A DNA stretch of 41,827 nucleotides, taken from positions 1-41,827 of the forward strand of contig CAIVJW010000138.1 of NCBI GenBank assembly GCA_903906315.1, read 5' to 3'. This stretch comes from an uncultured delta proteobacterium. GTDB taxonomy: Bacteria; Myxococcota_A; Polyangia; Polyangiales; Polyangiaceae. A program made the translations under genes and the position numbers. Shown here piece after piece: positions 1,755 to 29,298 of this stretch. Under the pieces are notes generated by a model. That model did not search any database, was not told the origin of the DNA, and saw nothing but the letters and a program-made list of their open reading frames with translations. Position 1 is the first letter of the stretch, and every line of letters begins with the position of its first letter.

Positions 1755-2804
1755 ATGCCGGCGAAGCGCGACAGGGACGACAGGCGAGCCCGCGTCGCGC
1801 CGGCGATCGCGGTGCTCGCTCTCGTGATCTCGGTCGGCGGGATCGTGATCTACACGCTCGGCGGCGGCCGCTGGTCGCTCGGCGAGTCGCTCTACCTCGC
1901 GGTCAACGCCGTCTCGACGGTCGGCTTCTACGAGCTCGACGGCATGGGCAACGTGCGCTTCGCGCGGGCCGTCACCGTGCTCATCATCATCGCCGGCCTC
2001 GGCGCCGTCGCCTACTTTCAGTCGAGCCTGACGGCGCTGCTCGTGCAGGGCGTGATCGGCAAGCGGTTCAGGGTGAAGCGGATGCAGACGCGGATCGAAG
2101 GCCTCGCGGATCACATCGTCATCGCCGGCGCGGGGTCGACCGGGATGCACGTCATCGAGGAGCTCGACGCGACCGAGACTCCGTACGTCGTCGTCGATCG
2201 CGACGCGGCCGCGCTCGAGCGGATCGCGCGCGACCTCACCTCCGGGCGCATGCTCTACGTGATCGGCGACGCGACCGACGACTCGGTCCTCCAGGAGGCC
2301 GGCATCACGCGCTGCCGCGGCGTCGTCGCGGCGCTCACCGAGGACCGCGACAACCTCTACGTGACGCTGTCCGCGCGCAGCCTGAACGCGACGGCGCGCA
2401 TCGTGGCGAAGGTGATCCACCCGGACGCCGCGCCGAAGATGGTGCGCGCCGGGGCGAACGCGACGGTGAGCCCGAACATGATGGGCGGCCAGCGCATGGC
2501 GAGCGAGATGGTGCGCCCGACCGTGGTGCGCTTCCTCGACCAGATGCTCGCGGACAAGGAGGTGCTCCGGCTCGAGGAGGTCGAGATCCCCCAGGGATCG
2601 TGGTTCATCGGGCGGAGCCTGCGCGAGGTGCCGATCCGTGCGCACACGAACCTGCTCGTCGTCGCGCTGCGCATCGACCAGACCTTCCTCTACAACCCGG
2701 AGCCGAGCGCCGAGCTCACGGCGGGCGCGGTGCTCGTCGTCCTCGGCGAGAGCCGCAACGTCGCGCGGCTGCGCGAGCTCGTCGTGCGCAAGCAGCCCGC
2801 GTAG
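1755..2804 (+). CDS. Two-TM potassium-channel-like protein with RCK domain
   Basis: 349 residues. TM1 spans about 15-34, the pore helix and filter about 43-60, and TM2 about 70-98. A cytoplasmic RCK/TrkA-N Rossmann domain follows at about 118-235 (IAGAGSTGMH, then the acidic VVVDRD that binds the nucleotide ribose), and a TrkA-C-like domain at about 255-345. This is the MthK/Kch architecture: a tetrameric membrane pore gated by a ligand-binding cytoplasmic ring. The filter reads TVGFYE at residues 55-60 instead of the canonical TVGYGD, so the second Gly of GYG is a Tyr; ion selectivity should not be assumed. The start is the ATG after a purine-rich GGGGCGG. It is divergent from the reductase and converges with the HEAT gene. 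Confidence 0.85.
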   Translation: MPAKRDRDDRRARVAPAIAVLALVISVGGIVIYTLGGGRWSLGESLYLAVNAVSTVGFYELDGMGNVRFARAVTVLIIIAGLGAVAYFQSSLTALLVQGVIGKRFRVKRMQTRIEGLADHIVIAGAGSTGMHVIEELDATETPYVVVDRDAAALERIARDLTSGRMLYVIGDATDDSVLQEAGITRCRGVVAALTEDRDNLYVTLSARSLNATARIVAKVIHPDAAPKMVRAGANATVSPNMMGGQRMASEMVRPTVVRFLDQMLADKEVLRLEEVEIPQGSWFIGRSLREVPIRAHTNLLVVALRIDQTFLYNPEPSAELTAGAVLVVLGESRNVARLRELVVRKQPA

Positions 2805-2900
2805 CCGTCGCGGACGGCGGGTCGAGCGCTTCGGACACCGGCGTGCAAGCCGGCGCACGCCGCGAAGCCCGGGCGCTCGGCGGGCTGGTTGGCTGCCCTG

Positions 2901-2920
2901 CCCCGGACTTCGCTCCGGGG
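2901..2920. terminator. Bidirectional hairpin between convergent genes
   Basis: CCCCGGA (2901-2907) and TCCGGGG (2914-2920) form a perfect 7-bp stem with a 6-base loop. It sits between the rightward channel gene (ends 2804) and the leftward HEAT gene (ends 2961). There is no clear T-run. The rest of 2805-2960 shows nothing else. Confidence 0.55.
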
Positions 2921-2960
2921 CTGCTTCATCGCCCGCGGTGCGCGAGGCGCGCGCCGTCTC

Positions 2961-4829
2961 TCACGAGGCGATGTTGCGGGCGCCGAGGATGTCGCGCACG
3001 GCGGCCTGCGCGGGCGACGGGAGGCGGCCCATCGCGGCGCGGGCGAGGTCGACGAACTTGGTGCCGCGCGCGCGCTTCAGGGCGTCCACGGCGGCGGAGC
3101 GATCGGCCGCGCCGTCGTGCTCGATCACGCCGAGCAGCATCTCGGCGGCCTCGAGGGTGTCGATCTTGGCGAGCGCCTTGATGACGGAGGCGCGGACCGC
3201 AGCGCGCGGGGTCTCGCGATAGATGCGCGCGAGCGGGTCGAAGGCGTGGGGGAAGCGCAGCTCCTCGAGCGCGCGCGCCGCCTCGCGCGCGACCCCGGGG
3301 TCGTCGTCCGCGAGCGCCTGGCGCAGGCTGATGAACGTGCGCTTGTAGAGGAAGCGAGAGAGGGCGCGCGCGACCGCGATGCGGACCGAGGGATCCGAGC
3401 TCGCGAGCAGGTGCTCGAGCGGCGAGAGGATCGAGTAGAGCTCGACCAGCGCGAGCTCCCCGGCGAGCGCCGCGTGGAGCTCGTCGAGATCGACGCCCGC
3501 GGCCCGGGGCTGGCGCTCGGCCGCTTCGACCGCCAGCGCCGTCAGGCGCGCGAGCATGGCTCGACGACGGGTGACCTCGGACCACGACGCGGCGTCGAGG
3601 ACGACGTCGCCCGCGGCCTCGGCGGCGCTCCCGCGCTGCTCCCACTCGACGAGATCGACGTGCCACACGTCGGGGAAGCCGACGTCGTGGCGCAGATGCG
3701 CGGGCAGCGGCGCCGCGTCGGTCTCGACGTTCTGCGCGTCGACGTACCGGCCGGCCGCGCGGCCATAGTGGGCGCGGCGCGAGGCCTCGAGGGGCAGCTC
3801 CGCGAGGGCGCGGTAGACGGCGCCGACTCGGCCGTACTGGCCGGCCTCGCCGTACGCGATGACGGCCGCGAGCAGGGCGTTCTCCGAGAGCTCCGGGGGC
3901 GCGCCGCGCTCTCGGCTGGCCGCCGCCGTCTGCTGCCAGAGGCGCGCCTGCGTGAGCGTCGCGAAGGCCGCGACCGAGTCGAGGCCCTCCTTGCGCGCGT
4001 AGGCGGCCATCTCGCGCGAAAGGGTCGCGGCGGCGCTGATCTCGCCCTGCTTCTCGGCGGCCCCGACGGCTTCCTCGTAGGACTGGAGCGCGTAGTAGCG
4101 GAGGTGGTCCTCGCACAGGATACGGATCACGTTCACGTAGCCCTCGAGGACGTGCTCGAAGGTCTGGCTCTCGCGGCCGATCGCCAGCAGGACCTGGAAG
4201 CAGTCGAAGGCGCGCTCGCGCTGGCCGATGGTCTCGTAGCGATCGGCGGCCTCCTCGAGCAGGTGCACGGCGGCGACGACGGCCTCGCGGGCCGCGCGCG
4301 CGTCGCCGGTGCGGAGCGAGGTGCGGGCGAGGTTGAAACGCGCGAGGCCGGCCGCATACAGGTCGGATCCCGAGCTCGAGAGGAGCTGCGCGAGCCGCGA
4401 CCAGAGGGCGCGCGCGCGGTCGAAGTCGCCGCCTCGCTCGCGGGCGATCGCGGCCTGCGCGACCAGGCCCGCCGCCTCGTACTCGTCGGCGGCCTGCGCG
4501 TAGAGGCCGCGCGCGCGGTCGTGCGGGCCGAGCTTGTCGGCCCACGCGAGGACGGTGCGCGCGCGATCGAGCGGCGGCACGCGGCCGACGAGGTGCTGCT
4601 GCGTGCGCTCGGTGCCCGCGTACCAGTCGACGGTGAGCGCGGCCCGAAAATCGCCCTGCTGCGCGAGGACGTCGCGCAGCTCGACGCAGAGCGCGACGTA
4701 CTCGTCCTCGCGGGCGATGGTGTGGCCGGCGGCCGCGACGAGCGCGGCGCGGGCGCCCGCGAGATCGCCGCGAGCGCGGGCGGATCGGGCCTCCTCGCGG
4801 AGATCGGACAGCTCGCGCGGGGCGCTCAC
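2961..4829 (-). CDS. TPR/HEAT-repeat protein coupled to VWA gene
   Basis: 622 residues from a GTG at 4827-4829. This GTG overlaps the TGA of the upstream VWA gene (GTGA on the minus strand), so translation is probably coupled; the long open frame further upstream is only the shadow of the VWA gene. The N-terminal two thirds are alpha-helical and TPR-like: recurring Ala-rich helix pairs such as AGARAALVAAAG and GDARAAREAVVAA. The last about 170 residues contain HEAT-type repeats (DPSVRIAVARALSRF, DPGVAREAARALEEL, AVRASVIKALAKI). There is no signal peptide, so it is probably cytoplasmic and a scaffold or partner for the VWA protein. No enzymatic motif is seen, and I cannot name a function. Confidence 0.8.
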   Translation of the reverse strand: MSAPRELSDLREEARSARARGDLAGARAALVAAAGHTIAREDEYVALCVELRDVLAQQGDFRAALTVDWYAGTERTQQHLVGRVPPLDRARTVLAWADKLGPHDRARGLYAQAADEYEAAGLVAQAAIARERGGDFDRARALWSRLAQLLSSSGSDLYAAGLARFNLARTSLRTGDARAAREAVVAAVHLLEEAADRYETIGQRERAFDCFQVLLAIGRESQTFEHVLEGYVNVIRILCEDHLRYYALQSYEEAVGAAEKQGEISAAATLSREMAAYARKEGLDSVAAFATLTQARLWQQTAAASRERGAPPELSENALLAAVIAYGEAGQYGRVGAVYRALAELPLEASRRAHYGRAAGRYVDAQNVETDAAPLPAHLRHDVGFPDVWHVDLVEWEQRGSAAEAAGDVVLDAASWSEVTRRRAMLARLTALAVEAAERQPRAAGVDLDELHAALAGELALVELYSILSPLEHLLASSDPSVRIAVARALSRFLYKRTFISLRQALADDDPGVAREAARALEELRFPHAFDPLARIYRETPRAAVRASVIKALAKIDTLEAAEMLLGVIEHDGAADRSAAVDALKRARGTKFVDLARAAMGRLPSPAQAAVRDILGARNIAS

Positions 4830-6337
4830 GGCGCGGCCCCTCGCCGGGCGGAGGCGGGCGACAGCGCCGATCGGGGCCCGGCGCCGTCCACCGCCGGCGA
4901 CGCGCCCTCGGTCTGGCCGAGGATCGACTTCGCCGCGTCCGCGCGCGCGGCCTTCTGGCCGAGCGTCGCGTGATCCACGACCCAGTGCGCGTCGAGCAGA
5001 TCGAGGTAGTCGAGGTCGAGCGCGCCGCCGCCGGACGGCAGGATGAACACGGCCGCGAGCTGCGCGTGCGCGCGCACCGCCTGCACCATCTCGCGCGGGA
5101 TGTAGAGGGCCGCGTGCGTGAAGAGGTGCACGACCGCCTGGCGAGGGTCGCGCTGGCGCGCGATCTCGAGCTCGGTCGCGAGCGCGGCGAAGACCCGCGC
5201 CGGGTTCCGGCCTCGCTCGCCCTTGAAGGAGAGGATCTGGGCCGTGGGCACGGCCCCGTTGCGAGCGCGGATGACCTCGTAGAGGCGTGCGTCGAAGAAG
5301 CGGAAGGCGACGTCCTCGCCCTCGATCAGCAGCTTCTTCGCGGTCGCGATCGCGAGGCCGCGCGCGAACGTCTGCCGGTCGCCGCGCATCGAGGCCGACG
5401 CATCGACGAGCAGGAGGTGCACGCGCCGCTGCTCCTCGCGGCTCTGCTCGCGCGCGAAGTAGAGGACCTCGTTCTCGGCGATGCGGCGCGCGAGCTCGAG
5501 GTCGTCCCAGGCGAGCTCCGAGAGCACCATGCTGTCGATGGATCCGCGCGTACCGATGCCGGAGTAGCCGAAGGAGGCCGTCGTGCCGGAGGCGGCGCGG
5601 GTCTTGGTCTCGAGCACGCTCGGCAGGATCTCGAGGGAGAAATTGACGATGTCGTTGGCCTCGGGGGACTCGAGCGCGGCGAGCAGGTCGACCTGCGCGA
5701 GCGCGCCGGCGGACGCCTCGGCGCCGAGCATGCCGAAGAGGCGGAGCGTGTCGAGGTCGAGCGCGTCGGCCATGGTGAGCACGAAGAGGCGCCCGACCTC
5801 GAGGGCGGAGAACGCGCCGAGCTCGAAGTCGCGGCGGCGCACCGCGCCGAGCAGCGCGGGGAGCTGCGGGTCGAGCCGATCGAAGATCGAGGCGTCGGCG
5901 GGGATCGCGGCGGCGTAGGCGGGCGGCGACGGGATGCGCGCGGCGATCGTGCCGAGCAGGCGCGCGAGGACGACCACGACGAGGTCGTCGTTCATCTTGA
6001 GCTGCGCGGCGCGGCGCGCGACCTCGCCGCCCGCGAGCTCGATCAGGAGATCGTGGTACGCCTGCGCGAACCGGGGCGCGTCGGCGCCGAGCGCGGCGAG
6101 CGCGCGGCCATCGCAGCGCGGACCGAGCTCGTATTGCTCGCGCGGGGCGGCGAAGACGAGGCCGAGGTCGTGGACCAGCACGAACGGGAGCACGACGCCC
6201 AGGCGCTCGAGGCCCTCGTGCCAGCGACGGGATCGGAGCGCGAGCGCGGACGCGAGCGGGCGCACCTGCGAGAGCGCGAGGGACCCGATCGGCCCGGCGA
6301 CGGCCGGGTCGCGCGCGAGGGAGTCGGGGACGGGCAC
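4826..6337 (-). CDS. VWA-domain protein (MIDAS intact)
   Basis: 503 residues starting at a GTG (6335-6337). The N-terminal half is helical and unassigned. A von Willebrand factor A domain occupies roughly 304-460, with the MIDAS motif VDASASM (D312-x-S-x-S316) and a later FTHA segment (406-409) where the MIDAS Thr would lie. The order of elements recalls CoxE/YehP-type VWA proteins, which often work with MoxR AAA+ ATPases, but no MoxR gene is in the window. It is the first gene of a two-gene unit with the HEAT/TPR gene (4-bp overlap) and is divergent from the PAP2 gene with 32 bp between starts. The VWA assignment is secure; the role is unknown. Confidence 0.85.
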   Translation of the reverse strand: MPVPDSLARDPAVAGPIGSLALSQVRPLASALALRSRRWHEGLERLGVVLPFVLVHDLGLVFAAPREQYELGPRCDGRALAALGADAPRFAQAYHDLLIELAGGEVARRAAQLKMNDDLVVVVLARLLGTIAARIPSPPAYAAAIPADASIFDRLDPQLPALLGAVRRRDFELGAFSALEVGRLFVLTMADALDLDTLRLFGMLGAEASAGALAQVDLLAALESPEANDIVNFSLEILPSVLETKTRAASGTTASFGYSGIGTRGSIDSMVLSELAWDDLELARRIAENEVLYFAREQSREEQRRVHLLLVDASASMRGDRQTFARGLAIATAKKLLIEGEDVAFRFFDARLYEVIRARNGAVPTAQILSFKGERGRNPARVFAALATELEIARQRDPRQAVVHLFTHAALYIPREMVQAVRAHAQLAAVFILPSGGGALDLDYLDLLDAHWVVDHATLGQKAARADAAKSILGQTEGASPAVDGAGPRSALSPASARRGAAP

Positions 6338-17693: not shown

Positions 17694-19763
17694 CTACCCG
17701 GGATCGGGCTCGCGGAGGAGCGCCTCGAGCCCGCTGGCCCGCTCGACGCGCAGCGCGAGCGCGACGCGGAGCTCCGACTCCGTGCCGAGCCAGGCGAGCT
17801 GCTGCTTGGCGCGCGTGACGCCGGTGTAGACGAGCTCGCGCGTCTGGATCGGCGACGGCCTCCCGGCGAGCACCAGGGCCACGCGGTCGAACTGCGAACC
17901 TTGCGACTTGTGGACGGTCATCGCGAGGGCGCCCTCGTGCGCCGGTAGGCGGGAGAGCGGCACCACGCGCACCTCGCCGGGGCGCTCGTGGGGGAACACG
18001 GCGACGCGCCCGGTCGGCGTCGGGAGCACGAGGCCCACGTCGCCATTCATCAGGGCGACGTCATAGGCATTCTCGGTCACGAGGATCGGGCGGCCGATCC
18101 AGTGGCGCCCGGAGTCGCCGCGGCGATCGTGGTCGAGCGACTCGCGCACGCGCGACGCCAGCGCCTTCTCGATCCCCGCGACGCCGAGGGGACCGCGACG
18201 GTGGACGGCGAGCACGCGATACCGGGCGAGCGCGTCGAGCACGGCGCGCTGAAACTGCGGCGCACAGACGGCCGGCGATCGGACGCCCGAGGCGCGAAGC
18301 TCGCGGGCCAGGATCGCGGCGTAGCCGTCGACCCAGCGCACGCGGCCATCCGGGTCGCGGACCTCGAAGCCCTTCATGTAGGGATCCGCGAGCCTGTCGA
18401 GCTGCGCTTCGCTCGGGCGCCCGCGCTGGCTCGGGCCCGTGATCTCGGGGGCGCCGAGGTGGGTGACTCGCTCGTTCGGCCAGCGCTCGTCGGGCGCGCC
18501 TCGGCGGCCGGCGAAGACGTCGACGGCGCGATCGACGCGCGCGCCGTCGTCGCCGCGCGGCACCCCGGGCATCTCGGTCGCGTAGCTCTGGAGGCAGGCC
18601 GCTATCAGCGCGATATCGGGCGCGTCGGCGAAGCGACGCGACCGCGTGAACGCCTGCACGCTCCCGGCGAGCGGGCCCGCGTCGCGGGCGCTCACGAGGT
18701 CGGCGAGCACGCAGCCGGCCTCGACGCTCGCGAGCTGATCGCGGTCGCCGAGCAGCACGAGGCGCGCGTCGTCCGCGACCGCTTCGACCAGCCTGCGCAT
18801 CAACGCGAGGTCGACCATCGAGACCTCGTCGACGACGACGACGTCGGCCGGGACGGGGTTGTCGCGCCCATGGCGCACGCTGCCGTCGGGCCGCACGCCG
18901 AGCAGCCGGTGAAGCGTGCTCGCCTCGAGCGCCTGGAGCGCCGCGCGCACGTCGGCGTCGACGTCGAGCGGCGGCGTCGCGTCGCTCGACGTCGCCTCGC
19001 GGATCGCCTCGCGCATGCGCACCGCGGCCTTGCCGGTGGGCGCCGCGAGCTTGATCACGAGCGGGCGCCCGCCGCGCCGGTCCTCGATCAGGGCGGCGAG
19101 CAGCCGGGTGATCGAGAACGTCTTGCCCGTGCCGGGACCGCCGATCACGATCGCGAGGCGGCGCGTGGCCGCGAGGCGGACGGCGCGCGCGGCCTCGCCG
19201 TCCGGCTCGCCCGGGAACAGTCGGGGGATCGAGGCGTCGAGGCCCGCGACGACGGCGCGGTCGTCGACGCCCGCGCGCGTGCGCTGCCGGAGGGCCGTCG
19301 CGACGAGCTGCTGCTCGCGAAACATGCGGCGCGTGAGCAGCAGCGAGGCGCCGCCGCCGAGATCCTGATGGACGAACGGGCGACGCGCGGAGTCGTCCGG
19401 CGGCCCGACGAGAGGCGAGGACAGGGTCTCTCGCTGCCAGGTCTCCGGGGCAGGCCACGGCAGCGGCTCTTCCTCGTCGGCCGCGCCCCCGTCGGTCGCA
19501 GCCTCCGGCGCGGCGTCGGGCGGCGCGGCCGACCGCGGATCGTGCCGACGAGGATCGTCTCCGATGCGCGAGGCGACGACCGCGAGGTCGACCCCCGCGT
19601 GCCCGACGCGCGGCGCGCGCACCGCGAACGCGAGCCCGAGCATCCGAACCGGATCGCGCTCGCCGAAGCGCGGCGCCACGATCGCCACGGCCTGCACGTC
19701 GGCCGCCGTGAGCACGCCCTCTTCGACGAACCGCGTTGCGAGGGCCTGAAACGTGGGAGTCAT
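17694..19763 (-). CDS. recD: RecBCD enzyme subunit RecD (5'-3' helicase)
   Basis: 689 residues from the ATG at 19761-19763, which overlaps the recB stop as ATGA. SF1B helicase motifs are intact: Walker A GGPGTGKT (208-215), motif Ia APTGKAA (241-247), motif II VVVDEVSM (about 309-316), motif III GDRDQL (339-344), HKSQGSQFDRVAL (motif V) and YTGVTRAK (motif VI). The N-terminal about 120 residues would contact RecC and are linked by an acidic spacer (GGAADEEEPLPW, about 92-103). RecD is the fast 5'-3' motor of the complex that resects double-strand breaks and degrades linear foreign DNA. It is the last gene of the recC-recB-recD operon. The longer in-frame extension upstream lies inside recB and is not real. 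Confidence 0.95.
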   Translation of the reverse strand: MTPTFQALATRFVEEGVLTAADVQAVAIVAPRFGERDPVRMLGLAFAVRAPRVGHAGVDLAVVASRIGDDPRRHDPRSAAPPDAAPEAATDGGAADEEEPLPWPAPETWQRETLSSPLVGPPDDSARRPFVHQDLGGGASLLLTRRMFREQQLVATALRQRTRAGVDDRAVVAGLDASIPRLFPGEPDGEAARAVRLAATRRLAIVIGGPGTGKTFSITRLLAALIEDRRGGRPLVIKLAAPTGKAAVRMREAIREATSSDATPPLDVDADVRAALQALEASTLHRLLGVRPDGSVRHGRDNPVPADVVVVDEVSMVDLALMRRLVEAVADDARLVLLGDRDQLASVEAGCVLADLVSARDAGPLAGSVQAFTRSRRFADAPDIALIAACLQSYATEMPGVPRGDDGARVDRAVDVFAGRRGAPDERWPNERVTHLGAPEITGPSQRGRPSEAQLDRLADPYMKGFEVRDPDGRVRWVDGYAAILARELRASGVRSPAVCAPQFQRAVLDALARYRVLAVHRRGPLGVAGIEKALASRVRESLDHDRRGDSGRHWIGRPILVTENAYDVALMNGDVGLVLPTPTGRVAVFPHERPGEVRVVPLSRLPAHEGALAMTVHKSQGSQFDRVALVLAGRPSPIQTRELVYTGVTRAKQQLAWLGTESELRVALALRVERASGLEALLREPDPG

Positions 19764-22700
19764 TGCGCGGCCTCCTTCTCGGGGGAGAGCGCCCGATCGA
19801 GCGCCTCGACGGTCTCCTTCGGCCAGCGATCGCCGAGCACGCCGAGGCAGCGCCCGGTGGCCGGGTCGCGCGGCGTGTCCGGCCCCGACATGCCCTTCAG
19901 AAACAGGTAGAGATACCCGCCCACGTCGCGGTCGTAGTCGTAGCCGCGGAGCCTCGTCTTCAGGTGCCGGTGCAGCGCGAGCGTGTAGAGCAGCGCCTGG
20001 AGCGGATAGCCTGCCTTGGCCATCTCCCACTCGAGCCACGGGCCCGCGTAGTTGAAGGCCTCCGAGTCGCCGATGCGGTTCGTCTTGTAGTCGGCGAGGA
20101 AGTAGCGCCGATCGCCTGCGACGGTCGCGCGGAACACGAGATCGATCGACCCCGTGAGGATGCCGGCGATGCCCTCGATGATCGGGCGCCCGGCGTCGCG
20201 GCGCGCGCGGAGGTGGTCGACCCACGGCGCGACGCCGCGGCGATGCGCCTCGGGCGAGGCCAGGATCGCCTCGTACACCTTGCCGGGGTCCACGCAGCCG
20301 GGGCGCGCTTCGAGCTTCGATCGCGGCGCCGCGCTCGCGCCGGGATCGCGTCGCCACGCGGTGCCGTCGCCGAGCCGGAGGTCGAAGGCCAGCTCGTCGA
20401 GGCGATCGCCGAGCGCGAGGTCGCGCAGCGAGAACCCCGGCGGGAGCCCGCGGACCGCGTCGTCCTCGCGCGTCGAGTCGAGCGGAGTCGCGATCAGCGT
20501 CGGGAGTAGCTCCACGAGCTCCGTCGTGAGCAGCTCGTCGCCGCGGAGCCCGACGCGCGCGGCCGAGGCGTTCACGAGGTCGCCGAGCGAGCGGCCGTCC
20601 TTCGCGACGCCCGTGGCGAAGTCGAGCGCCTCGAGGAGCTCGTGCACGCACGTCCCGTACTGCGTGCCGCGCCCGCGCTCGATCCTGCGCAGGGGCGCGC
20701 CCGGGGGATCGATCCGGGGCGGCCTCACGAGGCCGGCGGGCCCCTCCCCCGCCTCGGCCCGACGCGCGACGCCCGCGGCCTCGGCGATCGCGGCGTCGGC
20801 CCGCATCCGCTCGTCACGGTCGGGCGCGGCGCTGCCAGACGCGAGGCTCGTGAAGCTCGCGACCATCCACGGGCCAACGAGCGCCGGGGCGTCGGCGGGC
20901 CACGCCGCGCGCGCCGGATCCGCGAGCGAACGCGCCGGCGCCACCCATTGCGTCGCCCCCTCGACCGGCAGCTCGGCCGACCAGGTGAGGCTCCCCTCCG
21001 ATCGCGCGACGAGCTGGTCGAGGCGCAGCTTCGCCTTCGGCCACGCGCCCGCGGCTCCCTTCTTGCCGAAGTCCGGCATCGCGCCGTCGTCGAAGCCGTC
21101 CCGATCCGGATCGCGCATCAACAGGCGCCCGATCGCCGTCCCGCTCGCCGCCGCGCCGCCCGCGCCGATCGGCCCGTACCACGCGATCGTGCGGTGCCGC
21201 GCGCGCGTCAACGCGACGTACTGCTTGCGGAGCGCCTCGCGCCGCTCCTCGGCCACGGCGCGCGCGTGCGCCTCCGTCCGCCCCTCGGTGCCCTTGCCGC
21301 CGACGTGCAGCTCGGCGCCGTGATCGCCGCGCACGACGATCGGGCGGCCCTTGTCGTCGTGCTTGCGCGCCGACCACCCGAACGGCAGCAGCACGACCGG
21401 ATACTCGAGCCCCTTGCTCGCGTGCACGGTCTCGATCCGCACGGCGCGCGCGTCGCTCTCGAGCCGCTGCGCCGCCTCCTCGCCCCCCGCGCCCGCCTGC
21501 GCGCACAGCCAGTCGGCGAGCGCCCGCGGACCGTGGCGGCGCGTGCGCTCCTCGACGTGGAGCAGCTCGAAGAGGTGGCGCAGGTCCGTCGCGTGACGCT
21601 CGCCCTCGGGCAGCGCGAGCACGCGCGGCACGACCCCGAGCGCGCTCGCTTCGGCGTCGAACGTGCGCGCGAAGCCCTGCTTCGGCCAGCGATCGGCCGC
21701 GGCCTGCAGCCGCTCGGTCCAGGCGTTCCAGTCGCGCGCGCTCGGGTCCGGTGCGCGCGCCGGATCGACGGCGTCGCCCGCGTCGCCCGCGCCGTCGAGC
21801 TCGCGACCCGCGCGCGAGAGCGCCCACGCCAGCTCGTCGGCCGCCCAGCCGAACAGCGGCGTGACGACGGCCGTCCTCGCCGCGCGGTCGCGCCCACCGC
21901 CCGCGACCGCGTCCAGCCACGCCGCGAGCCAGCGCGCGACGGGCGTCTCGATCACGGAATCGTGGGCCGCCGCCACCGCGGGCACGCCCGCGCGCCCGAG
22001 CGCCCGCAGCACCGCCGCGCCCTCGTGATGGCCATTGACCAGCACGGCGAGATCGCCGGGCTCGATCGCGGGCGGGCGTTCGTCGCCGAGGTCGCGATCG
22101 ATCTCGCCGCGCGCGCCGTCGAGCCACGCGACGACCTCGCGCACCGCGAGCCGTGCCGCGAGGCCCTCGGCCTTGGACGAGATCGGCTGTCCCTCGTCGC
22201 CGCCGCGGGCGCGGTCGTCGACCCAGCGGAGATCCAGGCCCGAGGGCGGGCCGACGGCTCGCAGCCGGTCGCCGTGCTGCGCGACCACGTGGACGTAGTC
22301 GATCGCCTCCTGGTCGAAGGGCGACGATCCGGCGCGGAACAAGGCGTTCGTGGCCTCGACCGCCCGGCCGTCGGATCGCCAGTTGCGGTCCATCGTCCGC
22401 CGCTGGTCCGGATCGACCACCCCCGCCGCAGCGAGGTAGACGTGTACGTCGGCGCCGCGAAATGCGTAGATCGCCTGCTTCGGGTCGCCGATGAGGAACA
22501 GCCTCCGGTGGCCGTGGAACGCGGCGCGGAGGACGCTCCACTGCGCGTCGTCGGTGTCCTGAAACTCGTCGACGAAGACCGCGTCGAAGCGCTCGCGGAT
22601 GCGCGCGGCGAGCGGGCTGTCGGCGCCGCCGTCCTTTGCGACGCGCTCCGCGAGGCGCGACAGGATCGCGTCGAACGTGAGCACGCGCCGGCGCTCGAGC

Positions 22701-23755
22701 TCGGCCTCGACCCGCTCGCGCGCGGTCGCGGCGAACGCGACGAGCGGGGCAAATGCGCCGTGAAACTCGGCGTGGTCGTCGTAGAAGCGCTCGATCTCCT
22801 CGACGATGGGCCCCCACGGGCGCGCCTCGAGGTCGCTCGGCGCCCCCTTCCAGAGCCCGCGGAGGGCCGTGGCGCGAAGGCGCGCGAACGCGGGCTGCGC
22901 CGTGTCCCCCGGCCCCGCACCCGCGGCGAGCCAGTCGCTCACCTTGCGGATCGATCCGGACATCCAGCTGTCGCGCAGCGTCTTGAAGCGCTTGTCGCGC
23001 ACGTCCTGCTCGAGCGCCCCGAGGGCGCCGCGCGCGAGGCCGTCGCTCCAGCGCGCCTGCATCGCGGCCGCCTTCACCGTCCACTCCCGCGCCTGGCCGA
23101 GCGCGCCGCGCAGCACGTCCGCGGAGCTGTCGCCCGCGCCCGGCGCCTTCTCGGCCGGCAGCACGCCCGGCTTGGTCGGGCCGCTCATGCGCTTCGCCAC
23201 GTCGAGCAGCGAGGCCCGATTGACGCCGGCGCCCTCCAGCGCGGCGAGCTCCGCGGGCGACGCGGAGGCGTAGAGCGCGGCGAGCGTGTCGTCGACGATC
23301 TCCTCGACCACGTCGCCGGCGTCGGACATGAGCTCGAGCTCCGGGTCCTGCCCGGAGTCGAACGCGAGCTCCTGCAGCATGCGCTGCGAGAACCCGTGGA
23401 TCGTCGAGATCGGCGCGAGATCGAAGGAGCGGAGCGCGAGCTCGAGCCGGCGCACGATCTCGGCGCGCGGGGCGGCGCCGAGGACGTGGACAATCACCGG
23501 GTCCTCCGTCGTCGCCCCCGGCCCGCGGGCGGCCTCGAGCGCCTCGCGCAGGCGCCTGCGGACGCGATCACGCAGCTCGCCCGTCGCCGCATTCGTGAAG
23601 GTGATCGCGAGGATGCGGTCGACTGGCAGCCCGTGCTCGGCCACGAGCCGCAGCACGAGACTGGCAATCTGGAACGTCTTGCCCGTCCCCGCGCTCGCCT
23701 CGATCAGCCAGGTCGTGTGCTCGGGGAGCGCCTCGGTGTCTCGCCAGGGGTTCAT
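19760..23755 (-). CDS. recB: RecBCD enzyme subunit RecB (helicase-nuclease)
   Basis: 1331 residues from the ATG at 23753-23755, overlapping the recC stop as ATGA. UvrD-like 3'-5' helicase: Walker A SAGTGKT (21-27), motif Ia ITFTNAATGELRDRV, motif II VDEFQDTDDAQW, motif III GDPKQAIYAFRGAD, VHASKGLEYPVV, and motif VI YVALTRARHR. The C-terminal nuclease domain is intact, with GTCVHELLEALDF, then GSIDLVFR and FLADYKTNRIG giving the Asp-Asp-Lys of the RecB nuclease. The tail YPLQALLYTLALHRHLKTR and KGM is also typical. It is somewhat longer than the Escherichia coli protein, mainly through charged insertions. It combines with RecC and RecD in double-strand-break repair. Co-translation with both neighbours is likely. 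Confidence 0.95.
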   Translation of the reverse strand: MNPWRDTEALPEHTTWLIEASAGTGKTFQIASLVLRLVAEHGLPVDRILAITFTNAATGELRDRVRRRLREALEAARGPGATTEDPVIVHVLGAAPRAEIVRRLELALRSFDLAPISTIHGFSQRMLQELAFDSGQDPELELMSDAGDVVEEIVDDTLAALYASASPAELAALEGAGVNRASLLDVAKRMSGPTKPGVLPAEKAPGAGDSSADVLRGALGQAREWTVKAAAMQARWSDGLARGALGALEQDVRDKRFKTLRDSWMSGSIRKVSDWLAAGAGPGDTAQPAFARLRATALRGLWKGAPSDLEARPWGPIVEEIERFYDDHAEFHGAFAPLVAFAATARERVEAELERRRVLTFDAILSRLAERVAKDGGADSPLAARIRERFDAVFVDEFQDTDDAQWSVLRAAFHGHRRLFLIGDPKQAIYAFRGADVHVYLAAAGVVDPDQRRTMDRNWRSDGRAVEATNALFRAGSSPFDQEAIDYVHVVAQHGDRLRAVGPPSGLDLRWVDDRARGGDEGQPISSKAEGLAARLAVREVVAWLDGARGEIDRDLGDERPPAIEPGDLAVLVNGHHEGAAVLRALGRAGVPAVAAAHDSVIETPVARWLAAWLDAVAGGGRDRAARTAVVTPLFGWAADELAWALSRAGRELDGAGDAGDAVDPARAPDPSARDWNAWTERLQAAADRWPKQGFARTFDAEASALGVVPRVLALPEGERHATDLRHLFELLHVEERTRRHGPRALADWLCAQAGAGGEEAAQRLESDARAVRIETVHASKGLEYPVVLLPFGWSARKHDDKGRPIVVRGDHGAELHVGGKGTEGRTEAHARAVAEERREALRKQYVALTRARHRTIAWYGPIGAGGAAASGTAIGRLLMRDPDRDGFDDGAMPDFGKKGAAGAWPKAKLRLDQLVARSEGSLTWSAELPVEGATQWVAPARSLADPARAAWPADAPALVGPWMVASFTSLASGSAAPDRDERMRADAAIAEAAGVARRAEAGEGPAGLVRPPRIDPPGAPLRRIERGRGTQYGTCVHELLEALDFATGVAKDGRSLGDLVNASAARVGLRGDELLTTELVELLPTLIATPLDSTREDDAVRGLPPGFSLRDLALGDRLDELAFDLRLGDGTAWRRDPGASAAPRSKLEARPGCVDPGKVYEAILASPEAHRRGVAPWVDHLRARRDAGRPIIEGIAGILTGSIDLVFRATVAGDRRYFLADYKTNRIGDSEAFNYAGPWLEWEMAKAGYPLQALLYTLALHRHLKTRLRGYDYDRDVGGYLYLFLKGMSGPDTPRDPATGRCLGVLGDRWPKETVEALDRALSPEKEAAQ

Positions 23756-26700
23756 GCGTCCTCCGCGTCGCTGCCCTCGGGCTCGTTCGCGCCCTTCGCG
23801 TCCGTGCCCGCGGCGAGGACCGGGCCCCACACGCGCACGGCCCGCTCGCAGACCTCGGTCGCCCGCTCGGCGAGGTCCTCGATGCCGAGGTGCCCGAAGA
23901 TCGCCGACACCCACGGGTCTTCGTGGTCGCCCGCCGCCATCGACGATCCGCTCCACGCGGCGTCGGACGCCTCGACGGCGCCGGCCGGCGAGAGCTGCGC
24001 GTCCTTCGCGAGGCGAAGGGCGACCGCGCGCGAGAGCGCTGGAAACAAGGGGATCGGTCCCCCTCGCACCTCGCGCCAGGTCCGCACGAGCGCGTCGAGG
24101 TGCGCCCGCGCGTCGGCCGCCGAGGGCGCGTGGAGCGTCGCCTCCTTGCCGTGGCCGCACACGTGCGCGGACACGACCGCTTCGCCCGCCGCGACCGCGA
24201 CGATCAGCGTGACCCACGCCGTGAGCTCCGCGCGGCCGTTCGCGCCCTTGCTCGCCGTCACCCACACGAGCCGCCGGTCGCCGTCCTCGAGGCGCACGTC
24301 CGCCGCGGCGGCCGACACCACCACGCCGCCCACCTCGCAGCTGGCCTGGAGCGCCTCGGTGCGCACGCCGGGCACCGCCTCCGCGCGCCGCCTCGCCTCG
24401 CGCGCCTCGCCGACGATCCCCTCGAGCGCGCGACGGCCTCCGGCGCGCAGCTGCAGCGCACCCTCGCCGCGCAGCCGCGCCTCGAGCGCGTCGACGTCCG
24501 GCTCGGCGCCGCCCTCGGTCGCGCGCAGCACGCGATCGCGCAGCGACCAGGCCTCGAGCGTGCCCTGATCGAGGGGCTCGCGGTCGGGCACGGTCGCGTC
24601 CTCGGGCGCGAGCGAGAGGCCGAGCCGCCGGCGCAGCAGCTCCTCCTGCGGCCTCGCCAGCGCCCGGGCGAGCTCGTCGGCGCGGATCGCGTTCGTCTCC
24701 CCATCTTCCGCGGGCCACGGCGCGTCGAGCGGGGTGGCCGCGAGCCCGGCGAGCCTCCGCGGCCCGCGGATGGCCACAGCCGCGTCGACCCACACCGCGT
24801 CGAACGGGAGCCGCGGAGCCGCCGCCCCCTCCCCCGCCGCGAACGCCTTCTCGCTCCAGGGCTGCAGCGGGTGATCGACCCTCCGCGCCTTGGGCGCCTC
24901 GCCCGTGCCCGCGGCGATCACCTCGACCAGCTCGCTCACCACGACCGACATCGGCGCGGGCGCCCCGCGGCTCGGCTCGAAGCCGGTGCCGAAGAGCAGG
25001 AGCGCGTCGCGCGCGCAGAGCACGGCCTCGAGGAACAGGTGCCGATCGATCGTCCGGCGGTCGTACTCGCCGTGCTTGCGGGCCGCGAACGGGTCCCACG
25101 CGGGCGTGCGACCGGGCCGCGGAAACGCGCCGTCGTCGAGCCCGAGAATGGCAATCACGCGGAACGGCACCGACCGCATCGGCTCGAGCGCGCAGACGGT
25201 GATGGCGCCGGTGATGGGCCGATCACCGCGCAGCGGCCGGTCGAACGCGCCCGCGAGCGTCGCCGCGACCGCGGATCGATCGAGCGGGAGGCCCTCGCCG
25301 AGGTCGTCCGGAAAGAGCTCCGCGAGCGCCTCCTCGACCTCGACGCGCAGCCACGCCGACTCGCCCTCGACCTCCGTGAAGTCGTCGATCAGCTCCGTCA
25401 GGCGCGCGCGCCACCCGGCGCTCGTCGCGGGCTCGATCACGCGCCCGCGCACGGCGCGCAGGCGGTCGAAGAGATCGGCGAGGCGGCCGAAGCGCTCCAC
25501 GCCGTCGCGCCCGGCGACGTCGAAGGGGACGGCCGGCGCGAGGTCCGATCCCGCGGGCCCGGGCACGACGTCGAGCCCGCCGAGGTCGTGCATCAGCACG
25601 CCGAGCGCGAGCCGCTCGAGGCCGAAACGCACGGTGTTCTGGTCGATCGCGGGCTGCCCGTGCCGCTCCCGATCGGCCGCGTCCCAGGCCCACCGGATCC
25701 CCGATCCGACGACCATCGCGCGAAGCTCGGCGACGTCGTCCTCGCGGAGCGCGAACCGGCGCCGCACGGGCGCGGACGCGATCACCTCGAGCAGGCGCGA
25801 GGCCGTGACCCGCTCGTCGGCGAGCCCGAGGAGCTGCGCGAGCGCGTCGGCGACCGGGTTCTGCGCGCGGAGGCCGAGATCCGCGATGTGGAGAGGGAGC
25901 TGCGGGACGCCGTCGCCGTGCCGCGCGAAGACGGCCGCGAGGAGCGGCGCGTGGGTCGCGACGTCGGGCGTCATCACGAGCACGTGCCGCGGCTCGAGCG
26001 TCGGATCGGCCGCGAAGCGGCGCAGCAGCTCGTCGCGGAGGGCCTCGCACTGCCGGAGCGCGCCGTGGCACGCGTGCACCTCGAGCGATCCGCACGCCGC
26101 GAGGTCGGCCCACGGGCTGTCGGTCGGGTTGTCCTCGGCCCCGTCGGTCCAGGCCTGCACGCGCCCGAGCAGCGTCGAGGCGCGGTCGTCCTGGCGAGGC
26201 GCGTGCGACGGGGTGGTCGGCTCGGCGTAGCCGGTGCTCTCGAGCCACACCTGCAGATCGCGGCTCGGCTCGCCGTTCGCGGCCAGGATCGCGTTCTGTC
26301 GCTCGAGCTTCGCGAGCAGCTCGGCCGTCTCCGCGGGCGCCTTCGGCTCGCGCAGCTCGCGCAGCTGCTCGCGCTTGCTGTGGATGTCCTCCCACCACTC
26401 GCGCGACGGCGCGAACGCGAACACGTGGATGTCGAGGTGGCGCGCGAGCGTCGCGAGCCAGCGCTTGTCGCCGGGGCGCAGCGTCGTGAGCCCGAAGACG
26501 TGCAACGCGCGCCCCGTCTCGATGGGCGCGAGCGCCGCGACCTTGGCGCGCACGCGCGCGGGGGAGATCTCGGGCCCGCCGTCGAGGTCGCGGAGGATCT
26601 CGGCCAGCCAGGCGTGATCCTTGGCCGATCCCGGATCGGCCGCCCACGCGAGCGCGTCCTCCGGGCGGTCGTAGAGGAGGCGCTCGATCGACCCGGCCAC

Positions 26701-27138
26701 CTCCTCGGCGAACGCGAGCTCGCGCGCCCGCACCGATTCCCCGACCTCGCCCAGGTAGGCGCGAACGCGGACGAACGCGGGGTCGCCGAGCCGCGCCCGG
26801 ATGCGCCCGAGCACCCGCGCGACGAGGCGCGGCCCGCTCCAGGCGTCGACCGTCCCCGGCGCACGCTCCCAGAACGCGGACCGGTCGGCCGCGCTCGGCA
26901 GCGACTGCAGCCACCGGGCGGCGCCGTCGAAGGCCGCGCCGGGAAACACGAAGTCGAGGCGCGCGACGCCGTCGAAGCGGGTCGCGAGCTCGTGCCGGAG
27001 CCAGCGGTCCATGCCGCGGCTGCCGACGAGGATGGGCACGGCCTCGAACGGGTCGTCGGGCCAGGCGTCCTGGAGCGCGATCGCGAGCGCGTCGACGAGC
27101 TCCTCGACGCGCTGACTGCGGTGGGCGATGAGCGTCAT
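23752..27138 (-). CDS. recC: RecBCD enzyme subunit RecC
   Basis: 1128 residues from the ATG at 27136-27138, preceded by AAGGAG with 8-base spacing. It begins MTLIAHRSQRVEELVDAL and VGSRGMDRWLRHELA, typical of RecC, and carries a degenerate helicase-like core (LHVFGLTTLRPGDKRWLA, HACHGALRQCEALRDELLRR, VLVMTPDV) and a nuclease-like fold without catalytic residues in its C-terminal half. RecC scans the unwound strand for the regulatory Chi sequence and splits the duplex. It is the first gene of the operon; its promoter lies in the 630-bp divergent region containing the GTTGTG/CACAAC units. Confidence 0.92.
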   Translation of the reverse strand: MTLIAHRSQRVEELVDALAIALQDAWPDDPFEAVPILVGSRGMDRWLRHELATRFDGVARLDFVFPGAAFDGAARWLQSLPSAADRSAFWERAPGTVDAWSGPRLVARVLGRIRARLGDPAFVRVRAYLGEVGESVRARELAFAEEVAGSIERLLYDRPEDALAWAADPGSAKDHAWLAEILRDLDGGPEISPARVRAKVAALAPIETGRALHVFGLTTLRPGDKRWLATLARHLDIHVFAFAPSREWWEDIHSKREQLRELREPKAPAETAELLAKLERQNAILAANGEPSRDLQVWLESTGYAEPTTPSHAPRQDDRASTLLGRVQAWTDGAEDNPTDSPWADLAACGSLEVHACHGALRQCEALRDELLRRFAADPTLEPRHVLVMTPDVATHAPLLAAVFARHGDGVPQLPLHIADLGLRAQNPVADALAQLLGLADERVTASRLLEVIASAPVRRRFALREDDVAELRAMVVGSGIRWAWDAADRERHGQPAIDQNTVRFGLERLALGVLMHDLGGLDVVPGPAGSDLAPAVPFDVAGRDGVERFGRLADLFDRLRAVRGRVIEPATSAGWRARLTELIDDFTEVEGESAWLRVEVEEALAELFPDDLGEGLPLDRSAVAATLAGAFDRPLRGDRPITGAITVCALEPMRSVPFRVIAILGLDDGAFPRPGRTPAWDPFAARKHGEYDRRTIDRHLFLEAVLCARDALLLFGTGFEPSRGAPAPMSVVVSELVEVIAAGTGEAPKARRVDHPLQPWSEKAFAAGEGAAAPRLPFDAVWVDAAVAIRGPRRLAGLAATPLDAPWPAEDGETNAIRADELARALARPQEELLRRRLGLSLAPEDATVPDREPLDQGTLEAWSLRDRVLRATEGGAEPDVDALEARLRGEGALQLRAGGRRALEGIVGEAREARRRAEAVPGVRTEALQASCEVGGVVVSAAAADVRLEDGDRRLVWVTASKGANGRAELTAWVTLIVAVAAGEAVVSAHVCGHGKEATLHAPSAADARAHLDALVRTWREVRGGPIPLFPALSRAVALRLAKDAQLSPAGAVEASDAAWSGSSMAAGDHEDPWVSAIFGHLGIEDLAERATEVCERAVRVWGPVLAAGTDAKGANEPEGSDAEDA

Positions 27139-27287
27139 GGCGCGGCTCCTTCGACGAGGCGGGCGTGGCGGGGGGAGGGCGCGGCGCGACGGCCGACCGA
27201 CACCTCGAGGACGACGGACTCTATCGGACCTGACCGCGCCGCGCCCCGCCTGGGTGCGCCCGCAGGCACACGGAGCCGCCAGCCGCC
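27139..27287. promoter_or_regulatory. recC leader and promoter region
   Basis: The first part of the 630-bp gap between divergent recC and the TPR gene. No gene is supported. On the minus strand the segment complementary to 27215-27227 (GATAGAGTCC) is the only faintly -10-like stretch upstream of recC. The right side of the gap holds the three repeat units listed next; the spacers between them (27351-27470 and 27534-27689) contain no gene, apart from a 14-bp GC palindrome (27555-27568). Confidence 0.35.
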
Positions 27288-27350
27288 GTTGTGCGCGGGC
27301 GACCAATGCACACGACGACGTCGTTGTGGACGATCGCCGACAGGCACAAC
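27288..27350. repeat. GTTGTG/CACAAC four-half-site unit, copy 1
   Basis: Half-sites in the order forward, reverse, forward, reverse: GTTGTGC at 27288, GCACACGAC near 27308 (diverged), GTTGTGG at 27323, GCACAAC at 27344. The unit is 63 bp. The half-sites can pair as two stem-loops, or serve as operators: the two outer pairs are each about 28 bp long and start 35 bp apart. Confidence 0.7.
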
Positions 27351-27470
27351 GGCCGCCTGAGGGCCGCCGCCATCCGCAGGCGCGGCAGCGGGTCGACGCA
27401 ACCGGGCCCCCTCGCCCCGGGCGCGGGGGCGCGATCGCGCCCGATTCTGCGAATGCGTCCTCGAGGGGCC

Positions 27471-27533
27471 GTTGTGCGATCTTCATCGTAAGGCACAACG
27501 ATCGCGTCGTGCGCGCCACGCATTGCGCACAAC
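27471..27533. repeat. GTTGTG/CACAAC four-half-site unit, copy 2
   Basis: Same layout and length (63 bp) as copy 1: GTTGTGC at 27471, GCACAAC at 27493, GTCGTGC at 27506, GCACAAC at 27527. The second pair extends to a 9-bp stem (GTCGTGCGC / GCGCACAAC) with one mismatch. Internal sequences between half-sites differ from copy 1, so only the half-sites and their spacing are conserved. Confidence 0.75.
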
Positions 27534-27689
27534 GCCGAACGACAGCCCGAGCTTGCCGGCGCGCCGGCGCGTCCTGCGTGGGCCGACATGCCCCGTGCGC
27601 CACGGTCCATCCACGCCTCGCCGGGCCCCGATAGGCCTCTCCCAGGCGTGAAGGCGCGACGCGAAGCACCGAAATCGCCTCGCCCGGGG

Positions 27690-27756
27690 GTTGTGCAACG
27701 TGGACCGAATTTGCACAACGAGACAGGTTGTGGTCCGGTCCGCGGGTCAGCACAAC
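27690..27756. repeat. GTTGTG/CACAAC four-half-site unit, copy 3
   Basis: GTTGTGC at 27690, GCACAAC at 27713, GTTGTGG at 27727, GCACAAC at 27750; 67 bp. The first pair is a perfect 9-bp inverted repeat (GTTGTGCAA / TTGCACAAC). The last half-site runs straight into the GAGGAGG ribosome-binding site of the TPR gene, so a protein or RNA structure here would directly affect that gene. Confidence 0.78.
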
Positions 27757-27768
27757 GAGGAGGCCTCC

Positions 27769-29298
27769 GTGGCGTACGTCCGCCGGCGCGGCAACCAGCT
27801 CTCGATCGTCGCCGGCGAGCGCCACCCGACGTCTCGCAAGGTGGAGCAGCGCGTCCTCTTCACCTTCTACTCGCGGGCCGAGGCGCTCGAGATGGTCGGG
27901 CGCGGCGGCGACCCGGCGAGCGCCGCTCGGTTCGCCGAGGTCCTCGATAGGGAGCACCCGGGGGTGCGCTTCGGCTGGGAGTCGCTCCGAGCCGCGGTCG
28001 CCGCCGACCTCGGCCACCTGCCCGAGACCTACGAGCGGCGGACCGAGCGCCCCGCCGGGTCGCTCCGGCCCGACGTGGTCGCGCTCGCGCGGGGCATCGT
28101 GCTCGCGCCGCCGCCGCCCGCGTCGGACGGCACCGCGAGGGCCGACGAGCGCGCGGCCCTCGAGTACCTCAAGGATCTCGTCACCTGGCGCCTCGCCACC
28201 TGGGACGACCGCCCGCCGGACGCCCCGCCGACCGAGGCGGCGTTCGCCTGGCGGTTCGCGACCCGGTCGCCCGAGGTCCCGCCCGACGCGGAGGCGCACG
28301 CGCTCGGGTTCGTGGCGCGCGGCGAGCTGGGCCGCGCCGAGGGTGCGTTCCGGGTCCTGACCGAGGGCTTCCCGGGCTACGCCGAAGGCTGGAACCAGCT
28401 CGGGCTCCTCGCGATCCCCCGGGGAGACCTCGACGGCGCCGAGCGCGACTTCCGCAGGGCCGTAGAGCTCGCCCGCGCGCGGCTCCCGAAGCGCCCCGGG
28501 CGCGGCTCGCTCGAACGGGACCCGAGGGCGCTGCCCTACGCCCGCGGCCTTGCGCACCTGACGCACACGCTCGTGTGCGCGGCGCGGTACGACGAGGCGA
28601 CCGAGCTGGCCGCGCGGATCGAGCACGAGTGCGGCGACCCGGTCGCGGCGTCTACGTACCGCGCTGCGATCGCGCTGAACGAGCACGACTGGGCGACCGC
28701 GGCGCGCGAGTCGACGACGCCCGACGCCGTCTGCCCGGCGCGCCGGATCCTCGAGGCCTTCGCGCGGTACGAGAGCGGCGAGCCGCAGGAGGCCCTCGCG
28801 GCGTTCGTGCACGGCGCGCTCTCCGCGCCCAGGGCGACCCGGGTCGTGCTCGGCCGAACCACCGACACGCCGCGCCCCGGCCTCGAAGCGGACGACCACG
28901 CGAGCGGCGTCCGGCTCCGCGCCTTGCTGCACGGCTACCTCGGGGCGCGGGGCGCCGAGGCGACGCGGTACTTCGAGCGCGTGATCGACGACGAGCGCGT
29001 GGCCAAGACCGTGCGCGCCATGGCCGGGCTGCGAACGAGCTGGTACGCGGACACGAAGAAGACGAAGGAGTATCTCGATCACCTCACGGTCTCGCAGACC
29101 GCGGCGTTCGCGAGGACGCTCCTGCGCCAGGTGCCCGACCTCGTGGAGAAGGGAGGCCCCGCGCCGGGGGGCCGGGCGACTCGCCGCGAGCCGCCGGCGC
29201 GTCCCGCGGGGGGCGGGGCGGCGGACCCGCTTCCGGGACAGGCGAGGCTGTTTCCCGACACGGACTCCGACCGCGGCCGCTCGCGAACAAAGCCCTGA
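27769..29298 (+). CDS. TPR protein with transposase-like N-terminal segment, unknown function
   Basis: 509 residues from a GTG at 27769 with GAGGAGG 5 bases upstream; an in-frame start further left would fall within repeat unit 3 and has no ribosome-binding site. The first about 40 residues (VAYVRRRGNQLSIVAGER, then KVEQRVLFTFYSRAEAL) resemble the small N-terminal segment of IS1634-type transposases (YVRxxG...GKVxQRxL), but no DDE catalytic domain follows. Residues about 175-260 and 270-410 contain TPR-like pairs (LGFVARGELGRAEGAFRVLT, WNQLGLLAIPRGDLDGAERD, LVCAARYDEATELAARIE). The C-terminus is Gly/Pro/Arg-rich and probably disordered (ARLFPDTDSDRG). No signal peptide. Function unknown. It is divergent from recC across the repeat units. 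Confidence 0.8.
   Translation: MAYVRRRGNQLSIVAGERHPTSRKVEQRVLFTFYSRAEALEMVGRGGDPASAARFAEVLDREHPGVRFGWESLRAAVAADLGHLPETYERRTERPAGSLRPDVVALARGIVLAPPPPASDGTARADERAALEYLKDLVTWRLATWDDRPPDAPPTEAAFAWRFATRSPEVPPDAEAHALGFVARGELGRAEGAFRVLTEGFPGYAEGWNQLGLLAIPRGDLDGAERDFRRAVELARARLPKRPGRGSLERDPRALPYARGLAHLTHTLVCAARYDEATELAARIEHECGDPVAASTYRAAIALNEHDWATAARESTTPDAVCPARRILEAFARYESGEPQEALAAFVHGALSAPRATRVVLGRTTDTPRPGLEADDHASGVRLRALLHGYLGARGAEATRYFERVIDDERVAKTVRAMAGLRTSWYADTKKTKEYLDHLTVSQTAAFARTLLRQVPDLVEKGGPAPGGRATRREPPARPAGGGAADPLPGQARLFPDTDSDRGRSRTKP

Follow-up and report, generated by a model that had tools for sequence, protein, structure and literature searches.

A long-spaced inverted repeat tied to a scattered family of TPR-protein genes, and its probable role as an autoregulatory operator

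The window analyzed here, a stretch of 41,827 nucleotides from an uncultured delta proteobacterium of the Polyangiaceae, carries recC-, recB- and recD-like genes on its minus strand in the order C-B-D (17694-27138), and a TPR-family gene that diverges from recC across a 630-bp intergenic gap (27139-27768). Three units, each composed of four GTTGTG/CACAAC half-sites, lie inside this gap.

23752-27138, minus strand: recC, the divergent neighbor (Exonuc_V_gamma, RecC_C)
27288-27350: unit 1, 63 bp, a tandem pair of inverted repeats (GTTGTG-17-CACGAC-6-GTTGTG-16-CACAAC), 150 bp from the recC start
27471-27533: unit 2, 63 bp (GTTGTG-17-CACAAC-6-GTCGTG-16-CACAAC)
27690-27756: unit 3, 67 bp (GTTGTG-18-CACAAC-7-GTTGTG-18-CACAAC), running up to the TPR-gene ribosome-binding site
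27757-27763, plus strand: GAGGAGG, the ribosome-binding site of the TPR gene
27769-29298, plus strand: the TPR-family gene, a proposed autoregulator (GTG start, 509 aa)
27769-27906, plus strand: codons for residues 1-46 of the TPR protein, the basic N-terminal domain, which is its most conserved part and a candidate for DNA binding

A first-pass annotation of the sequence had described these units, and we find their number, their lengths and the distances between their starts (183 and 219 bp) to be as it claimed; the third copy does end at the TPR-gene ribosome-binding site, with the last half-site closing at 27756, GAGGAGG directly after it and the GTG at 27769. Its wording of the half-sites as GTTGTG/CACAAC holds exactly for 10 of the 12, while the remaining two, one each in units 1 and 2, are GTCGTG/CACGAC variants, and a better consensus is GTYGTG/CACRAC, which fits all 12. 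The segment 27288-27756 contains every exact GTTGTG of the window total (5/5) and 5 of its 8 exact CACAAC sites. Across 20,000 dinucleotide shuffles of 27139-27768 there were never more than 3 exact half-sites (10 observed) or more than 1 inverted pair (6 observed), and the mean number of complete units was 0.00005 (3 observed). The array amounts to six single inverted repeats, doubled into units, with the unit triplicated. Unit 3 is the one whose spacing and position recur in homologues; units 1 and 2, situated 200-480 bp from the TPR gene, are without counterpart at other loci. A lone GTYGTG-N16-18-CACRAC pair at 6167 of the window falls within coding sequence and is probably due to chance.

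We searched the 8.8-Mb assembly for three successive half-sites on both strands, using the reversed pattern as a control. Four sites were called complete because each matched on both strands: the three of the window and one on contig C72 (C72:6720-6785, gaps 18-6-18), which ends just before the ribosome-binding site of a paralogue (G000:C72:6801) that shares 48% identity with the TPR protein and is its sole close paralogue in the genome. The reversed pattern had zero matches in the 8.8 Mb. The genome-wide search that the first-pass annotation had proposed therefore returns four complete units, all before two family members, a number on which we reject a genome-wide repeat family. In the 107 further genomes of the taxonomic family the search turned up no unit with matches on both strands, either adjacent to recC or elsewhere. 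When the single repeat GTTGTG-N16-18-CACAAC was searched in six other carrier genomes belonging to three phyla, all 7 matches were located just upstream of a family gene, and the reversed pattern gave 2 chance matches; this restriction to positions upstream of the gene lends no support to the earlier suggestion of a repeat family mobilized by the TPR protein.

In the window's own genome the single repeat has five matches, four in the array and one orphan, GTTGTG-N18-CACAAC at G000:C292:3078-3107 (L106 1501-1530), which is followed by GAGG and has no family member, recognizable relic or decayed family gene nearby. The contig with this orphan site also encodes repeated peptide fragments 'RRWP/QKPTGERGFHWAPLT'. 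A reciprocal scan that started from the DNA and used the gap-18 pattern found 18 sites in 318 genomes of the class, of which 5 are directly upstream of family members; no relative was found adjacent to the other 13, a number close to that of the reversed control. There were no viral carriers either: of the 62 viral contigs in which the DNA motif was found, none codes for a family member, which fits chance in a large collection.

Homologues reached by a profile of the TPR protein come from Acidobacteriota (L071, L074), Desulfobacterota (Deferrisomatales, L072) and Myxococcota (L073, L075, L076 and others); a family member at L078 belongs to a Sandaracinaceae genome of the same order as the window and is the same locus as L051 in G174. 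Among genes of the AYVRRRGNQ type we considered testable those with upstream DNA present, which left out L109, L113 and L117, cut by contig ends. An exact GTYGTG-N16-19-CACRAC stands 1-82 bp upstream of the start in 16 of 16 such genes from these three phyla, 13 of which have a repeat with a gap of 18, whereas the same upstream repeat occurs in 0-1% of dinucleotide shuffles. The rule had been fixed on 15 of 15 genes, and the sixteenth, L204, was found afterwards with GTTGTGTCTGAGCTATAATCATGACACAAC at -71 and a gap of 18, as predicted. The comparison of upstream regions of orthologues, also proposed at first pass, thus places the repeat before every testable homologue, and for the TPR gene the half-sites are neither at random frequency in the genome nor without conservation beside orthologues.

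The doubled, four-half-site form is present at L073 (gaps 18-3-17) and at the paralogue, and in a less regular version at L071. Since most homologues have one repeat, the basic module is a single inverted repeat, GTTGTG-N16-19-CACAAC, usually with N18. Across 22 repeats, position 3 is the only one in the half-site that varies (T 39, C 5), a pyrimidine is preferred on each side of the half-site, and the gap between half-sites is nearly fixed in length and free in sequence, which bears out the earlier remark that the intervening sequence is not conserved. The long-spaced inverted repeat is a DNA site tied to one scattered TPR family and near-absent elsewhere in carrier genomes.

A divergent subfamily of (M)xFVRRKRGQ proteins, with ~20% identity overall, has GTAGTG-N18/19-CAC[TC]AC, or something close to it, with 1-3 bp left between the repeat and the ATG; these repeats are exact in 4 of 7 cases (L081, L083, L086, L052) and imperfect in L077, L078 and L079. 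The layout is kept while position 3 of the half-site shifts with the protein subfamily, but operator and protein differ jointly only once, and such covariation of domain and half-site, being a single evolutionary event, is suggestive only. Two proteins of this subfamily (L079, L086) have an extra cysteine-rich C-terminal domain, CRRRPxxxPCxG...CxRCxDxG.

The genes next to the TPR gene differ from locus to locus.

Window: recCBD
L071: a PQQ-dehydrogenase-like gene, read from its translation
L072: a DUF6880 gene (2509-3897), directly downstream and beginning where the TPR gene ends
L073: a nuclease-related (NERD-domain) helicase (4416-6056) and a divergent HTH/nucleotidyltransferase pair
L074: an ABC transporter
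L075 and L076, upstream of the TPR gene: AbiEi antitoxin genes (L075 507-1301, L076 583-1389) and SEC-C proteins

At L073 the NERD helicase start and the TPR-gene stop codon overlap (ATGA), which points to an operon, and the DUF6880 gene of L072 is a possible operon partner as well; L075 and L076 are from two related genomes. Across these loci only the TPR gene is constant and no other gene qualifies as a constant candidate regulator. Given this constancy, and a site that is nearly unique per genome, autoregulation by the TPR protein is the simplest explanation.

An operator of the TPR gene could instead be read by a regulator encoded elsewhere, such as a host factor or an AbiEi-type antitoxin, a reading that we consider unlikely. 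The association of site and gene by itself names no binder, and AbiE-type toxin-antitoxin genes, or an HTH/nucleotidyltransferase pair resembling them, are found close to three loci (L073, L075, L076). AbiEi is known to exert negative autoregulation via several inverted repeats at its own promoter (PMC7319586); the present system would resemble it in such autoregulation, and does so in being made up of scattered accessory genes. However, AbiEi belongs to another protein family, and AbiE genes are absent near most motif carriers: none was seen in the window, in the region of the paralogue or at the other loci examined, several of which are only 4-7 kb long. At L075 and L076 themselves, ~1.6 kb separate the AbiEi gene from the site, which stands at the TPR gene. 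Furthermore, the same site appears across three host phyla, unchanged and otherwise absent from the genome, which makes it unlikely that these hosts have in common a regulator acting in trans on this one target.

Promoters were predicted by a simple sigma-70 scan, and at six loci the predicted -10 element falls inside the repeat.

L072: TTGCCG-17-TATAGT
L078: TTGACA-17-TTATGT
L083: TTGCGC-16-TATATT
L052: TTGACG-18-TATATA
L108: -10 element inside the repeat
L204: -10 element TATAAT inside the repeat

At L074 and L111 it is the predicted -35 element that overlaps the right arm, and the repeat lies upstream of the predicted start. This variable and often overlapping position relative to the promoter would fit a repressor better than an activator. 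The scan gave no convincing sigma-70 promoter in the window, where a promoter may simply escape recognition, as is common in DNA of 73% G+C.

The same predictions bear on the view, which we regard as improbable, that the repeats work as RNA hairpins in a 5' leader, either as targets of the TPR protein or through an effect on translation. Single-strand folds are more stable than those of shuffled sequences for unit 1 (z -3.5), unit 3 (-2.3), L071 (-4.3) and L072 (-3.9), though not significantly so for unit 2 (-1.2). For units 1 and 3 and for L071, nested folding into a single long hairpin is possible. Stems are, however, expected of any inverted repeat, and the nearly fixed gap length with free gap sequence also argues against an RNA. 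Mismatched arms are tolerated: the right repeats of unit 2 and of the paralogue contain a C-A mismatch (GTCGTG/CACAAC), and the L052 arms (GTAGTG/CACCAC) would be unpaired as RNA. Finally, since the predicted starts at all eight of these loci lie inside or after the repeat, the full hairpin would not be transcribed there. The first-pass suggestion of structured RNA is accordingly disfavored.

We also judge it very unlikely that the repeats serve a mobile gene module as its site of recombination, integration or partition. The gene is indeed sporadic, occurring in at least 9 of 318 genomes of the class and at least 2 of 298 genomes around an acidobacterial carrier, figures that are lower bounds, because the large searches scored only a handful of candidates in each genome and fragmented assemblies are numerous. 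Some loci (L009, L110) have tRNA-like sequence, read by eye, on the upstream side of the TPR gene, a hint that genomic islands may have integrated there, and the central CACRAC-N6/7-GTYGTG resembles a recombinase core. Against this, most loci have one repeat pair on one side of the gene with no copy at its other end, the loci have no recombinase gene as a constant companion, the repeats are placed on promoters, and the double form with its short central gap is absent in most homologues. Very unlikely, too, is that the array also or mainly controls the divergent recCBD genes, named at first pass as possible targets together with the TPR gene, and that the TPR protein regulates repair locally. 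The array does lie between recC and the TPR gene, with unit 1 near the recC start, and might act on recC at this locus; but recC is beside the motif at no locus seen except the window, the paralogue and other carriers have other neighbors, no complete unit was found in the 107 related genomes, and a main role as a recCBD operator is without support outside the window.

Regarding the TPR protein itself, residues 1-45 are 62-89% identical within the AYVRRRGNQ subfamily, compared with 33-44% for the remainder of the protein, and have a net charge of +2 to +7 in all 14 members. AlphaFold2 models this segment as three antiparallel strands followed by a helix with a pLDDT of 90, both in the full protein and alone. 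The Pfam TPR models (TPR_1, TPR_2, TPR_16) match all 14 members, with helical repeats at residues ~170-450; the likeness to generic TPR proteins is confined to these repeats, whereas the conserved N-terminal domain and the operator belong to the present family only. No family naming the N-terminal domain or the whole protein was found in Pfam, NCBIfam, PADLOC or PHROGs. The N-terminal segments had no Pfam match at E up to 10, where sensitivity is low for so short a domain, and PF14657 found no member among 39 relatives. The domain likewise gave no significant match in a PDB sequence search, no Foldseek match at E <= 0.001, and a best VIA-align Z of 3.3 to unrelated chains. A defense annotation was rejected, as PADLOC gave no credible match beyond a weak one in one member (E 0.004). 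A link suggested by a resemblance of the N-terminus to IS1634-type transposases was also set aside: no such transposase was found in the genome, and when plasmids were searched with the N-terminal segment the matches were weak and at chance level. Residues 1-45 are the candidate DNA-binding domain through which the TPR protein would probably control its own gene.

AP2/ERF and phage-integrase arm-binding domains consist of a three-stranded sheet and then a helix in ~45 residues, and read short GC-containing boxes. The present N-terminus, as modeled, shares with them the order of elements and a vague sequence resemblance, but neither Pfam (Arm-DNA-bind/AP2) nor the PDB-sequence, Foldseek and VIA-align searches gave a match, and we treat this possible kinship as a lead.

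Taken together, we think it probable that the array serves as a DNA operator and that the TPR protein uses it to repress its own gene. All testable homologues have the motif in front of them, in many cases overlapping the predicted promoter, as an operator array of the TPR-gene regulator should, so this part of the first-pass annotation is strongly supported. Its further suggestion that the TPR protein binds the array offers the best explanation of the data, though binding itself is something we infer, as are dimeric binding, repression and a ligand or partner of the TPR domain. What is found at these loci, a dyad-symmetric site at the regulator's own predicted promoter that is conserved with the gene, is what would be expected of a repressor-type autoregulatory operator. 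In the proposed mechanism the functional module would be the long-spaced GTTGTG-N16-19-CACAAC, whose half-sites are separated by about two turns of the helix. Binding most likely as a dimer, the TPR protein would read one half-site of 6-8 bp per subunit through its small basic N-terminal domain, and on or beside the promoter it would keep its own gene repressed, the repression being lifted by a signal that acts on its TPR region. Points against the operator model are the N-terminal domain, which has no significant match to a known DNA-binding fold or family, the window array without a recognized promoter, the distant units 1 and 2, and the orphan site on C292.

A TPR protein of this kind may work like AimR, the arbitrium receptor and an RRNPP TPR quorum-sensing regulator, whose dimer reads two 6-bp boxes 25 bp apart with the TPR part along the spacer (PMC6458997) and which acts at aimX through an N-terminal HTH (PMC6458997, PMC9232636). 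Common to both would be an N-terminal DNA-binding domain (a candidate one here) joined to TPR repeats, two inverted 6-bp boxes set unusually far apart (by 25 bp in AimR and by 16-19 bp in the present repeat), and a spacer sequence that is not read specifically. Unlike AimR, the present site is at the gene's own start and the hosts are Acidobacteriota, Desulfobacterota and Myxococcota. As in the RRNPP proteins (Rap/Rgg/NprR/PlcR/PrgX/AimR), C-terminal TPR-type repeats are present in 14 of 14 members and in the model. The N-terminal HTH of that group is not, since this segment is modeled as strands and a helix at high pLDDT and matches no HTH family, which places the present family outside the RRNPP/AimR group. 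A literature search for the motif as an operator found no relevant report.

More tentatively, with somewhat less than even confidence, we propose that the ~45-residue strand-strand-strand-helix segment is an undescribed sequence-specific DNA-binding domain that heads widespread TPR one-component regulators, each recognizing about one site per genome, a long-spaced inverted repeat at its own promoter, together a self-contained accessory sensor switch. If true, this would assign a function and a DNA target to a TPR family unnamed in the libraries searched, and would add a non-HTH DNA-binding domain to the TPR-type regulators. It would also define a compact regulator-operator pair recognizable across phyla, in which the site, because it is almost unique per genome, could be used to find further members of the family and to annotate their starts.
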